Assembly: GCF_008330225.1 (NCBI RefSeq)
Contig: NZ_CP042466.1
Location: 1,064,501 to 1,128,500, forward strand
DNA: 64,000 bases
Reading direction: 5' to 3'
Origin: Geobacter sp. FeAm09
Lineage (GTDB): Bacteria; Desulfobacterota; Desulfuromonadia; Geobacterales; Pseudopelobacteraceae
Of this stretch, positions 22,915 to 35,969 are shown one piece after another (within the stretch, counting starts at the first letter, position 1; each line of letters starts with the position of its first letter). Below the pieces are notes generated by a model. The model was given only the letters and a program-made list of their open reading frames with translations, was not told the DNA's origin and made no database searches. The translations under genes were made by a program, and so were the position numbers.

Positions 22915-23346
22915 GCGTTAGGAGAACGCCCGGCGCCGGGCGGCCTGCGGAGTGGCACCGGGCCGTGGCTCGTGCGCTGCCGGCAAACATTTTTTGTATC
23001 AAAATGACACAATGAAGGGCATCCGGGTATGGTTCGGATGCCCTTTTTTAATGTGAAAACGGTTAAATAGCAATATTTGCCGGAAAATGTTAATAAAATT
23101 AACACATTGGTTTTTAATTGAAATCCGTTTTTGCGGGGTGTAGAAGGGGGTGTCGCAATTATTGCACAATTGGGCCGGCGGTGTTTGAAGCGGGCAGAGG
23201 GGGGGCGACCCCGGCGGGGAGGATCGGCGCGATAATGCCGCCTGTCGGCCCGTTTTGCCTCGTGACCCTGCACGGCCGTTCTCCGGCAGGTAAGCATGAC
23301 GCCGGGCGGTACCACATCATATTCTTTTCTTGGGCAGGAGGCGGGC
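22915..23346. other. Intergenic region carrying element copy B
   Basis: Holds element copy B (22996-23146), which supplies both the terminator of the Tyr/Gly lipoprotein gene and a promoter-like sequence about 200 bp before the FG-GAP lipoprotein. No gene is seen; the downstream part (23150-23340) is an unusually long potential leader with no recognised riboswitch. Confidence 0.4.
22996..23146 (+). repeat. Intergenic element, copy B (most complete)
   Basis: GTATCAAAATGACAC (22996-23010), hairpin GGGCATCCG/CGGATGCCC (23017-23043) with six T, AATGTGA, perfect dyad GTTAA-TAAAA-TTAAC (23089-23103), TTGAAA (23118-23123), 17 bp, TAGAAG (23141-23146). Same order and nearly the same spacing as copies A and C. 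The last two boxes are spaced like a sigma-70 promoter pointing at the FG-GAP lipoprotein gene. Confidence 0.7.
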
Positions 23347-27397: not shown

Positions 27398-27426
27398 GCG
27401 GGAAGGACAGAGTGCGTACCCCACAA

Positions 27427-27450
27427 GGCGGCCAATCGGCCGCCTTTCGT
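27427..27450 (+). terminator. Rho-independent terminator after flavin reductase
   Basis: GGCGGCC-AATC-GGCCGCC (27427-27444) followed by TTTCGTGTTTTT. It isolates the flavin reductase gene from the MarR promoter 100 bp further on. Confidence 0.75.
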
Positions 27451-27545
27451 GTTTTTCGAGAGATTTCCGGCCTCCGCCCCTCCCGACACGCTCCTCTGCT
27501 CTCCAATCCTGCCAGCGGCCGGTGCTGGGTGGCCGGTATTTTTTC

Positions 27546-27574
27546 TTGACAATGGTTCGTGGCCGAACTATATT
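27546..27574 (+). promoter_or_regulatory. Sigma-70 promoter of marR-type gene with embedded operator; leaderless start
   Basis: TTGACA (27546-27551), 17 bp, TATATT (27569-27574). The whole spacer tail is the palindrome GTTC-GTGGCC-GAAC (27555-27568), which abuts the -10 box. The ATG of the MarR gene is only 6 bp after the -10 box, so transcription should begin at or next to the start codon, giving a leaderless message. A bound repressor would block the promoter, implying autoregulation. Confidence 0.75.
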
Positions 27575-27580
27575 CATCCC

Positions 27581-28024
27581 ATGGAGCACAGGGATACCCC
27601 ACGCGATATTATCGACCTGATCGCCCGAATCCGCGAGGCGGCCAATGGGCTGATCGAGCGGGAGCTGCAGGCGCGCGGCCTGACGGGGATCGTGCCGGCC
27701 CACGGCCTGGTGTTCGCGTTCCTGTTCCGCCAGCAGGGTCCGGTGCCCATCAAGGACCTGGTCCGGCAGTCCGGCCGCGTCAAGTCCACGGTCACGGGGA
27801 TGGTCAATACCCTGGAGAAGCATGGGTACCTGTACAAACGGGAGTGCAGCGAGGACGCGCGTTCCACGCTTATCGGCCTCACGGAAAAGGGCAGGGCGAT
27901 CCGGCGGGATTTCGAGGCGATTTCCGTTGTTCTGGAACAGCAGGTGTATGGCGATATGGGGACGGATGACCGCCGGCATGTCATGGAGCTGTTATCGGCA
28001 ATCGACAAGAATCTGAAACGATAA
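27581..28024 (+). CDS. MarR family transcriptional regulator
   Basis: 147 residues. Winged-helix region with PIKDLVRQSGRVKSTVTGMVNTLEKHGYL (recognition helix) and RECSEDARSTLIGLTEKG (wing) is typical of MarR proteins, dimeric repressors released by small phenolic or oxidant ligands. It starts 6 bp after its own -10 box, and matching operators lie in its own promoter and upstream of the cupin gene, so it most likely represses itself and the cupin locus. Ligand unknown. Confidence 0.88.
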   Translation: MEHRDTPRDIIDLIARIREAANGLIERELQARGLTGIVPAHGLVFAFLFRQQGPVPIKDLVRQSGRVKSTVTGMVNTLEKHGYLYKRECSEDARSTLIGLTEKGRAIRRDFEAISVVLEQQVYGDMGTDDRRHVMELLSAIDKNLKR

Positions 28025-28040
28025 TTTTTTTCTCAAATTA

Positions 28041-28060
28041 GTTCTGGCCCGAACTTTATC
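28041..28060 (+). promoter_or_regulatory. Second MarR-type operator, upstream of the cupin gene
   Basis: GTTC-TGGCCC-GAAC (28041-28054) matches the operator at 27555 in its half sites and six-base spacing, and is directly followed by TTTATC, a possible -10 box in the same relative place. A stem CCCGGTTG-TTCTG-CAACCGGG at about 28073-28093 lies in the leader before the cupin start. Confidence 0.65.
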
Positions 28061-28144
28061 GGGTAAAGGGCTCCCGGTTGTTCTGCAACCGGGGGCGGGC
28101 CATAAAGAGCCATCGGCTCACAACATCACACTAGGAGAAGCGAA

Positions 28145-28540
28145 ATGGAAAAAATCGGTAAAAACTACAAGGTGTCTTCGACGGGTAATATCCAGGAATT
28201 GGGGCGCGTGACCCTGCATGAGCAACTCGCCCTCACCGGGTCGGAAGTATCCGTCAACGAGCTGCCGGCGGGCGTAAGCGTGCCCTTCGTCCATGCGCAC
28301 AAGCGCAACGAAGAGGTCTATGTCATCGTGTACGGCAAGGGGAGTTTTTACATCGATGGCGACGAGTTCGGCGTGGAGGCCGGGGACGTGCTGCGCATCG
28401 ATCCCGCCGGTGAGCGCTGCATCAAGGCCGACGCCCAGTCATCCCTCAGGTTCATCTGCATCCAGGCCGAGGCAAAGAGCCTCGTGCAGTTCACCCAAAA
28501 TGACGGGGTACCCTGTGAAGCAAAGCCGAGCTGGCTGTAA
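28145..28540 (+). CDS. Cupin domain protein
   Basis: 131 residues, cytoplasmic. The double-stranded beta-helix motifs are visible: motif 1 PFVHAHKRNEEVYVIVYGKG (metal-ligand His/His/Glu positions) and motif 2 GDEFGVEAGDVLRIDPAGER. Cupins of this small type range from dioxygenases to isomerases and sensors; the substrate is unknown. Start after CTAGGAGAAGCGAA. The last 63 bases are duplicated at 30581-30643, on the far side of an inserted two-gene cassette. Confidence 0.85.
   Translation: MEKIGKNYKVSSTGNIQELGRVTLHEQLALTGSEVSVNELPAGVSVPFVHAHKRNEEVYVIVYGKGSFYIDGDEFGVEAGDVLRIDPAGERCIKADAQSSLRFICIQAEAKSLVQFTQNDGVPCEAKPSWL
28478..28540 (+). repeat. 63-bp direct repeat, left copy (cupin 3-prime end)
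   Basis: AGCCTCGTGCAGTTCACCC... to the cupin stop codon TAA. Matches 30581-30643 at 61 of 63 positions. The left copy completes the intact cupin gene. Confidence 0.9.
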
Positions 28541-28572
28541 TGAATTTATCGGGAAAGGTAAAGGTAACTGTT

Positions 28573-29433
28573 ATGAAATTTATGCCCCACCTCTCTTCAC
28601 TTATAGCCGGTTCAGCATTTTGCCTGTTGTCATTGGCGGCGCAGGCAAATGCAGCTGGCTTTGATGCGGCCAGATTTGAAACGATCAAAACCAAAAATCT
28701 GCAGATTCACTCCTATGCAACACAGGACGCTTTGGGAGATGTAAGTATCGTTTTTGAAACCGAAAATGCTTTGATTTTGCTGGAACCGCCTCCTTTCCAT
28801 AGCAAGTCAGGGGAACTGAAAGCATATTTGGCCACATTAAAGAAACCACTGAAAGGTATTATTGTTTCAGCACATAATGGCGCTGTCGAGAAGTTTGAAG
28901 GAGTTCCTATTTATGCCAGCCAGGCAACGGCAGGAGAGTTGAACAAGAGTATCAAAAGCCAGCTTGAAAGCTTTAGGTCTTTTGGTGGTGACGACCTGAA
29001 TACCAAACTGGCCGCACCAACCCAGATTCTTACGGACAAAAAGGTTGCAATCGCAGGCATTGGTTTTGAGGTCGTTTACCACAACGGCCCACTGCCAACC
29101 ATTGATTTGGCAATCCCAGAAAGCAACGTACTGTTTTTGCACATGCTCGGGGCCGATTCCCACTCCCTGGTCACCAGCAGGGAGCAACTCGTTGATTTGA
29201 TCGACAACCTTAACAGAGCCGATAAAAATGGGTACAAGATAGTACTTTCTTCGCATCACAAGCCTGAGACGGGAAAAGACATCACCCGGAAGATTGCATA
29301 TCTGGAAAAAATGAAAGGCATTATTTCTTGCGCCAAGACGAGCGAAGAGTTTGTTGCCGCCATGAAAGCCAGCTTTCCCGATCTGCAAGGGGGACATTAT
29401 CTTAATATGACTGCCCAAAGTCTTTACCGGTAA
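28573..29433 (+). CDS. Exported MBL-fold-like protein lacking the canonical zinc motif
   Basis: 286 residues with a signal peptide (MKFMPHLSSLIAGSAFCLLSLAAQANA). The layout SIVFETENALILLEPPPFH, LKGIIVSAHN, VLFLHMLGADSHSLVTS and KIVLSSHHKPETGKD follows the metallo-beta-lactamase fold, but the HxHxDH zinc motif is not present in its usual form, so hydrolase activity is doubtful. Base composition is lower in GC than the flanks. An upstream ATG at 28540 overlaps the cupin stop; 28573 is preferred because the signal peptide starts there. Confidence 0.7.
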   Translation: MKFMPHLSSLIAGSAFCLLSLAAQANAAGFDAARFETIKTKNLQIHSYATQDALGDVSIVFETENALILLEPPPFHSKSGELKAYLATLKKPLKGIIVSAHNGAVEKFEGVPIYASQATAGELNKSIKSQLESFRSFGGDDLNTKLAAPTQILTDKKVAIAGIGFEVVYHNGPLPTIDLAIPESNVLFLHMLGADSHSLVTSREQLVDLIDNLNRADKNGYKIVLSSHHKPETGKDITRKIAYLEKMKGIISCAKTSEEFVAAMKASFPDLQGGHYLNMTAQSLYR

Positions 29434-29540
29434 CTCTACAAACTGTACCAGTGGTTCGAGACAGCGCCTCTTCTTTTTCCTGGAAGAGGCGCTTTGTTTT
29501 GAAATGCCGATTCTGTGCCAGTAAATATGCAGGAGATATT

Positions 29541-30536
29541 ATGCACACTCTGTTTTCTACAATTTTGGCGGCGATTCTGCTTTTATCAGCAAACGTCACC
29601 CTTGCCGCATCTGCCATATCTGTCCTGGGGAAGGATTACCTGTTCCCGAACCGTATAGCAGGCCTGCCGGCCAAGCTGTCTGACTTTAAAGATCTGCAGA
29701 TCAATACCTTCAAAACCAGCGATGGCGTCAAGCTCGCTTACTGGGAGGCGGGACGGGGACGGCCGCTGATCTTCATACCCGGTTGGTCCTCCAACGGGGC
29801 CGAATACATCAATGTGATCTATCTGCTCAGCAAACAGTACCATGTTTATGTGCTTGATCTGCGTAATCAGGGGCTGTCGCAGCGGGTTGAGTACGGCAAC
29901 CGCATTGCCCGCTACGCCATGGACGTGAAGGAGTTGGCTACCCATCTCGGGCTTGCTACAGCAGACTATTGCGGCTGGTCCATGGGGGCGTCAATCATGT
30001 GGAGCTATATGGACCTGTTCGGCACAAATGGGATACGCAAGTTTGTCGGTATCGACGAGCCGGTTTCGATCTATTCCCATGCGGACTGGCCCGAACGTGA
30101 GCGCCTCGATGCCGGCGGGATGACCACGTCGCCGGAACGGATGATAGCGGCTTTTACCAAAGGTACGCCGGCAAACAGCCTGATTGTGGATATGAAGGTG
30201 ATGGAGCGCTTCACGGTCATGGATTCACCCTATTACCAGAATTCCATTGGCTTTGCCGGAACATTCATCCAAAACGATCCACACTATCTGTCACTGGTGC
30301 TGTTCGATCATGTTATGAATGACTGGCGTGATGTAATCCGCCAGAAAATCAATGTGCCGACCGCTATCTTTACCGGCGAATACAGCAATAATGTGCCCAG
30401 CCAGAGATGGATGCAGTCAGTGATCCCTGGGGCCATACTTTTCGTCTATTCCAAGGCTGAGCAGGGGGACCACTTTCTGGTATTCAAAAATCCAGTGAAG
30501 TTCGCAACAGACCTTGGGTCATTTCTGGAACAGTAA
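29541..30536 (+). CDS. Exported alpha/beta hydrolase
   Basis: 331 residues. Signal peptide ending TLAASA. The hydrolase fold shows PLIFIPGWSSNGAEY (oxyanion region), VYVLDLRNQGLSQR, nucleophile elbow GWSMGAS (catalytic Ser) and a C-terminal GDHFLVFKNP with the catalytic His. Located in the periplasm; substrate unknown. AGGAGATATT precedes the ATG at 29541. It forms a cassette with the MBL-like gene, of similar lower-GC composition, between the 63-bp repeats. Confidence 0.85.
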   Translation: MHTLFSTILAAILLLSANVTLAASAISVLGKDYLFPNRIAGLPAKLSDFKDLQINTFKTSDGVKLAYWEAGRGRPLIFIPGWSSNGAEYINVIYLLSKQYHVYVLDLRNQGLSQRVEYGNRIARYAMDVKELATHLGLATADYCGWSMGASIMWSYMDLFGTNGIRKFVGIDEPVSIYSHADWPERERLDAGGMTTSPERMIAAFTKGTPANSLIVDMKVMERFTVMDSPYYQNSIGFAGTFIQNDPHYLSLVLFDHVMNDWRDVIRQKINVPTAIFTGEYSNNVPSQRWMQSVIPGAILFVYSKAEQGDHFLVFKNPVKFATDLGSFLEQ

Positions 30537-30580
30537 CTATATAATCGAGTCTATCAAGCCATCAAAAGCAAATGGTTTTA

Positions 30581-30643
30581 AGCCTCGTGCAGTTCACCCC
30601 AAATGACGGGGTGCCCTGTGAAGCAAAGCCGAGCTGGCTGTAA
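30581..30643 (+). repeat. 63-bp direct repeat, right copy
   Basis: Second copy of the cupin gene 3-prime end, including its stop codon, with two differences from 28478-28540. No intact cupin gene precedes it, so this copy is the ancestral end displaced by the cassette or was brought in with it. Confidence 0.9.
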
Positions 30644-31100
30644 GCGGCGGGAGCGCCCCATCCGGTAATGGCGGTGACGGTTCTGGGATTGCAAAAAAAC
30701 AATGGGAATTTTTCTCGGCAGTGACCGGCGCCGTTTGGATATGCAAACGACGCCGACCCGCCAGGCGGCCAACCGGCCGCCTTTTTCGGCTGGGGCCGCC
30801 TGGCGGGTAATCGCGGCTTGAATACGGACCGATTTGGGGGTAAAGTCTCCAAAGGCACCTCCTGGCCGTGGAAGACCGGGCCCCTGAACCCATCTCGCGC
30901 AGTTTCCTCCTCCTCGATAATCCAGGCGTGCCTTTGGAGCGGCCAAAGGGCTCGCCATTCTCCTGTTCCCGACAAAAAGCCCGGCCATATTGTGATTATG
31001 CAGACCTCGATACGGGGGCGCCGGGAGGTTTCCCGGGCCCGACAAATTGCGGCGCTCCTCTGCGGGGCGGCCCCAGACCTTGTACGACAGGAGGATCACC
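30644..31100. other. Intergenic region with terminator
   Basis: About 460 bp. GGCGGCC-AACC-GGCCGCC followed by TTTTT at 30770-30792 is a rho-independent terminator, probably the ancestral end of the cupin transcript. The remainder up to the TPR/PDZ lipoprotein gene is GC-rich; no gene, promoter or repeat could be supported. Confidence 0.4.
30770..30792 (+). terminator. Rho-independent terminator
   Basis: GGCGGCC and GGCCGCC separated by AACC, then five T. Nearly the same stem is used at 27427. Confidence 0.7.
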
Positions 31101-35768: not shown

Positions 35769-35820
35769 CAGGGAAACGGGGCGCGGACAAATTGCGCCAT
35801 CGTGCCGTGCCACTTTTTTT

Positions 35821-35969
35821 GCATCAAAATGACACAATCTGCGGCACCCGGGTCTGTCCCGGGTGCCTTTTTTAATGTGAAATCAAGGGGCTAGGGGATC
35901 GGCGGTTTTGTGGTAATTTTTTTAACACTTTGAAATTGCATTGAAATACGATGTTTGGGGGTGTAGAAA
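35821..35969 (+). repeat. Intergenic element, copy C
   Basis: GCATCAAAATGACAC (35821-35835), hairpin GGCACCCGGG/CCCGGGTGCC (35843-35867) with six T, AATGTGA, dyad GGTAA-TTTTT-TTAAC (35912-35926), GAAATTGC, TTGAAA (35941-35946), 17 bp, TAGAAA (35964-35969). Same layout as copies A and B. The hairpin terminates the QorB-like gene; the promoter-like end points to the LysE gene 75 bp on. Confidence 0.7.

Follow-up and report, generated by a model that had tools for sequence, protein, structure and literature searches.

A low-GC gene pair behind a MarR-associated cupin gene in Geobacter sp. FeAm09 and the 63-base direct repeat that bounds it

Gene content and surroundings of the locus

The analysed window (i.e., the whole stretch of 64,000 nucleotides from Geobacter sp. 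FeAm09) contains, on the forward strand, genes for a MarR-family regulator (27581..28024, Pfam PF01047), an intact cupin (28145..28540, Pfam PF07883), an MBL-fold protein that is predicted to be exported (28573..29433, with an alternative start at 28540) and an alpha/beta hydrolase, also predicted to be exported (29541..30536, Pfam PF00561, Abhydrolase_1). The regulator is 75-77% identical to its counterparts in G071 and G054, two genomes of the same order, which also hold the nearest relatives of the cupin (79% identity in G071 and 75% in G054). In the tree, the cupin falls in a 100/100 clade with those of G071, G054, Propionivibrio limicola and a Holophagaceae MAG, and its nearest neighbour is the G071 protein. 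G054 has the regulator followed by the cupin alone, with no hydrolase behind it, and G071 has the regulator, the cupin and the hydrolase without the MBL-fold protein. A paralogous cupin in the FeAm09 genome (L029, G000:C1:2592152) lies about 3.5 kb from a paralogue of the FMN-reductase, and similar pairs are present in several relatives.

A putative MarR operator, GTTCGTGGCCGAAC, lies at 27555..27568 on the forward strand and overlaps the MarR promoter. A second putative operator, of the form GTTC(N6)GAAC, precedes the cupin gene on the same strand (28041..28054). GTTC(N6)GAAC sites stand upstream of both the regulator and the cupin gene in G071 and G054 as well, in the same arrangement.

The initial annotation described two genes of lower GC content between repeats, and the composition bears this out. 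GC and GC3 are 0.46 and 0.48 for the MBL-fold gene and 0.52 and 0.64 for the hydrolase gene, versus 0.65-0.69 and 0.86-0.89 for the flanking genes. The corresponding values are 0.62 and 0.81 for the regulator and 0.59 and 0.77 for the cupin; GC3 therefore falls at the end of the cupin gene.

The four genes are contained in a larger block, at about 27402..30804, which is missing from this site in the genus mate G003: blastn homology to G003 ends at 27401 and starts again at 30805. In G003, the FMN-reductase and TPR-PDZ genes are ordered as in the window, with other genes between them. The flanks stand apart in G002 and G005, where the block was seen beside neither of them in the fetched pieces or in the cupin and MBL searches. 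Given the block is absent at this site in the genus mates, the regulator and the cupin are lineage-specific too. Hence, the cupin gene, which had been taken as the target of an insertion, is itself a lineage-specific acquisition.

A terminator-like inverted repeat had been reported downstream of the gene pair, and it is indeed present at 30757..30784 on the forward strand. It could be the ancestral terminator of the cupin gene, as initially suggested. Over 28 bases, it shares 89% identity with 27420-27447, such that one member of the pair lies near each end of the block. These 28-base terminators were not found at the corresponding junctions in genus mates, and terminators similar to them occur elsewhere in the family. 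The sequence from 30644 to 30804, of which the terminator alone was matched in 138 genomes of the order, is possibly the former 3' flank of the cupin gene.

The MBL-fold protein and the hydrolase

The MBL-fold-like character first proposed for the product of 28573..29433 agrees with structure prediction. The AlphaFold model, with a mean pLDDT of 71, is matched by MBL-superfamily structures in Foldseek (probability 1.00, best TM 0.66-0.67), and the NCBIfam matches are weak. The predicted model supports an alpha-beta/beta-alpha MBL fold, though the HxHxDH metal-binding motif is absent: in the alignment, the region reads SAHNGAVEKF, and two relatives likewise do not have the motif. The protein could possibly have a different metal site, or none. 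It belongs (28540-29433 in the window) to a rare family, which keeps the motifs HMLGADxHS and S(S/G)HHxPE despite the missing HxHxDH.

Searches of plasmids, phages and three sets of genomes (141 from the order, 395 from the phylum and 398 from another phylum) gave only distant relatives of the MBL-fold protein and no close one; a scan of genome contigs with the protein returned no relative. One relative, with 32% identity, was found in the phylum. In the Holophagaceae MAG, a relative is encoded about 4 kb upstream of adjoining cupin and hydrolase genes, and all three lie within 6.4 kb.

The second gene had been described as an exported alpha/beta hydrolase, which stands on its PF00561 match and a GWSMG nucleophile elbow; the N-termini of both proteins read as signal peptides when inspected by eye. 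The GWSMG (G-x-S-x-G) elbow and a GDHF motif for the catalytic histidine are invariant in four aligned sequences, as are S147 and H311, and the protein distantly resembles chloroperoxidase and arylesterase structures. It is 74% identical to homologues in G109 and Cupriavidus, 71% to that of G100 and about 62% to that of G071. Homologues are distributed patchily across other phyla and rhizobial plasmids, and no relative was found when viral sequences were scanned with an alignment of the hydrolase. The plasmid-borne relatives adjoin LysR regulators and tautomerases, and a tautomerase-like reading frame follows the hydrolase in P. limicola and G071.

A sister relation between the hydrolases of the window and of G071 was rejected (p_AU 0.001), and one with the hydrolase of G109 was not (p 0.108). 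Since the cupin is nearest to those of G071 and G054 but this hydrolase relation is rejected, the cupin and the hydrolase have differing histories. Homology to G109 extends 37 bases past the hydrolase stop codon, through a 3' flank at 30537..30573 on the forward strand, and the pairwise alignment ends at 30573, shortly before the right copy of the repeat; thus, the junction is new here. In G109 itself, the end of a cupin (residues 106-130) directly precedes the hydrolase, the remainder of the cupin is missing, and a sigma-54 regulator adjoins (L066 3740-3860). The locus looks like a truncated cupin-hydrolase operon.

The cupin and the hydrolase are neighbours in unrelated genomes (G071, Propionivibrio and Holophagaceae, and G109 with a cupin remnant), and this recurrent gene order supports a working association between them. 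In G071, P. limicola and the Holophagaceae MAG the same families are adjacent, as in the window, and G071 shares the operator sites too; however, none of the three has an MBL-fold gene between the cupin and the hydrolase, and no 63-base repeat was seen in G071.

An intrinsic terminator with a 12-bp stem lies between the MBL-fold and hydrolase genes (29463..29493, forward strand; fold z-score of the intergenic region -4). Because this strong terminator separates them, transcription that starts at the cupin promoter may reach the hydrolase gene less than the MBL-fold gene. The terminator, together with the difference in GC3, also means that the two genes may have arrived separately.

The 63-base direct repeat

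The direct repeat covering the end and stop codon of the cupin gene, initially annotated as 63 bases with two differences, was recovered in that form. The left copy (28478..28540, forward strand) comprises the last 20 codons and the stop codon of the cupin gene and ends exactly at the stop; the right copy (30581..30643, forward strand) is identical to it at 61 of 63 positions, with a spacing of 2103. When the 64 kb window is compared with itself by blastn, the sole background considered for the repeat, this is the top-scoring direct repeat, and its score of 105 bits rules out a chance origin. Duplication during assembly is an unlikely source, given the single 4.10 Mb contig, the two differences between the copies and their unique flanks. 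Other repeats in the window include a 72-base one (22987-23058 and 35812-35882, 82% identical), which is matched in G003 too and is likely a repeated intergenic element, and copies around 47156 and 48300, which look intergenic from the reading frames around them.

The sequences flanking the two copies diverge from the first base on either side. At the first difference (28497/30600), a glutamine conserved in G071, G054 and G109 is replaced by proline in the right copy, which is therefore the changed one at this position; the second difference (28510/30613) is synonymous and unpolarised. Given the two copies are 97% alike, and any relative at most 69%, the right copy derives from this cupin lineage. 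Between the hydrolase 3' flank and the right copy lie seven extra bases, GGTTTTA (30574..30580). Nine bases ahead of the right copy, an ATG opens, in frame with it, a 23-residue reading frame (30572-30643) that ends like the cupin; it has no evident ribosome-binding site and is probably due to chance.

Origin of the arrangement

The initial annotation suggested an integration that regenerates its target gene. The part of this suggestion that holds is the presence of foreign-looking genes behind an intact cupin gene, as indicated by the discordant trees and by the occurrence of the regulator and cupin without the pair in G054. The part concerning a mobile or site-specific cassette is not supported: as had been remarked from the outset, no recombinase or integrase was found in the cassette; a 27-base piece of the repeat had no match in viral contigs; plasmids and phages gave no cassette, only hydrolase homologues on plasmids; and no second copy exists at another locus of this genome. 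None of 138 genomes of the order showed the exact empty site (i.e., a cupin gene followed directly by the sequence starting at 30644) expected in relatives that never underwent such an event.

We propose instead that the MBL-hydrolase segment was acquired horizontally and added behind the MarR-regulated cupin gene by recombination with one-sided homology, the likeliest form being a single crossover, and we put the chances of this reading at about even. Acquisition is supported by the step in composition, the discordant kin and the hydrolase flank shared with G109; the exact end of the repeat at the stop codon and the conserved operators before the regulator and the cupin also speak for the proposal. 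The end of the cupin gene would have crossed over with a foreign molecule, made circular (or joined at its ends), in which the final part of a near-identical cupin was already present. This would leave the cupin gene intact, the new genes downstream of a MarR-controlled promoter and, beyond them, a truncated second cupin end. On its right, the repeat would then stop where donor and recipient cease to be alike, at the cupin stop codon, and its left end would be an illegitimate joint. The donor and the circular intermediate are postulated, and no donor with a cupin end of about 97% identity was found among the hydrolase-bearing relatives. The event would belong either to FeAm09 itself or to the lineage that supplied the whole block, and it may be older than the entry of the block into this genome.

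In E. coli, integration with one-sided homology mostly yielded partial duplications of the end of the homologous gene, of 109-950 bp, through a single crossover with a circularised molecule (PMC3240628). The locus resembles those events in that foreign DNA stands beside a homologous gene, a partial duplicate of whose end flanks it, with no dedicated recombinase needed. It differs in being natural, whereas the laboratory cases involved plasmid DNA, and the length of its duplication, 63 bases, is shorter than the range obtained in E. coli, which counts against the proposal, as do the failure to find a donor or an empty site and the chance that the two genes arrived separately.

The layout of direct repeats at the 3' end of a gene, with the cupin intact and the repeat ending at its stop codon, is also that of CIMEs, elements that retain attL and attR after the loss of their integration and transfer genes (PMC5704250). 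The two 63-base copies could accordingly be the attL and attR of a decayed or trans-mobilised element of this kind, which regenerated the gene and whose integrase was lost or acted in trans. The likeness extends to cargo without integration genes; however, the cargo here amounts to only two genes, and for this cupin neither an att site nor a related integrating element is known. Viral contigs, phages, plasmids and genomes of the order showed no second use of the 63-base cupin end and no related integrase-bearing element with the same attachment site. The cupins of G071 and G054 are without an element bounded by such repeats, and no other cargo was seen at the same site. Together with the missing recombinase, the unmatched repeat piece and the single copy, this makes a CIME-like origin unlikely. 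It is more improbable still that a small cassette without an integrase, mobilised in trans, uses the cupin 3' end as its attachment site and so adds exported enzymes to an operon under MarR control.

The gene pair could also have been inserted illegitimately at a staggered double-strand break in the cupin end, where fill-in of a 63-nt overhang duplicated the target; no donor homology would be required. The right copy nearly matches the resident cupin and not any known donor, and the seven extra bases of the right junction are consistent with end joining; yet only coincidence would make the duplication stop at the final base of the stop codon, and we consider this origin improbable. The same exact end is left unexplained if all four genes came together in a single operon and the right copy was added afterwards, behind the hydrolase, through local template switching or duplication-deletion. 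That the entire 27402-30804 block is lineage-specific agrees with such an arrival, as do the recurring adjacency of cupin and hydrolase and the three genes clustered in Holophagaceae. The GC3 step at the cupin stop and the different nearest kin of hydrolase and cupin, however, argue against it, and we regard this reading as unlikely.

The arrangement thus looks like an old recombination scar of acquired DNA and not a moving element. The gene families and their neighbours suggest that the cluster, with its two exported enzymes, may handle reactive or aromatic compounds under MarR control. Existing knowledge of gene acquisition is unchanged by the locus. On the proposed reading, it would be a natural case from which one can read how foreign genes are gained behind a regulated gene, with that gene unbroken and no dedicated recombinase, and it ties a rare MBL-fold protein without HxHxDH to a cupin-hydrolase partnership.
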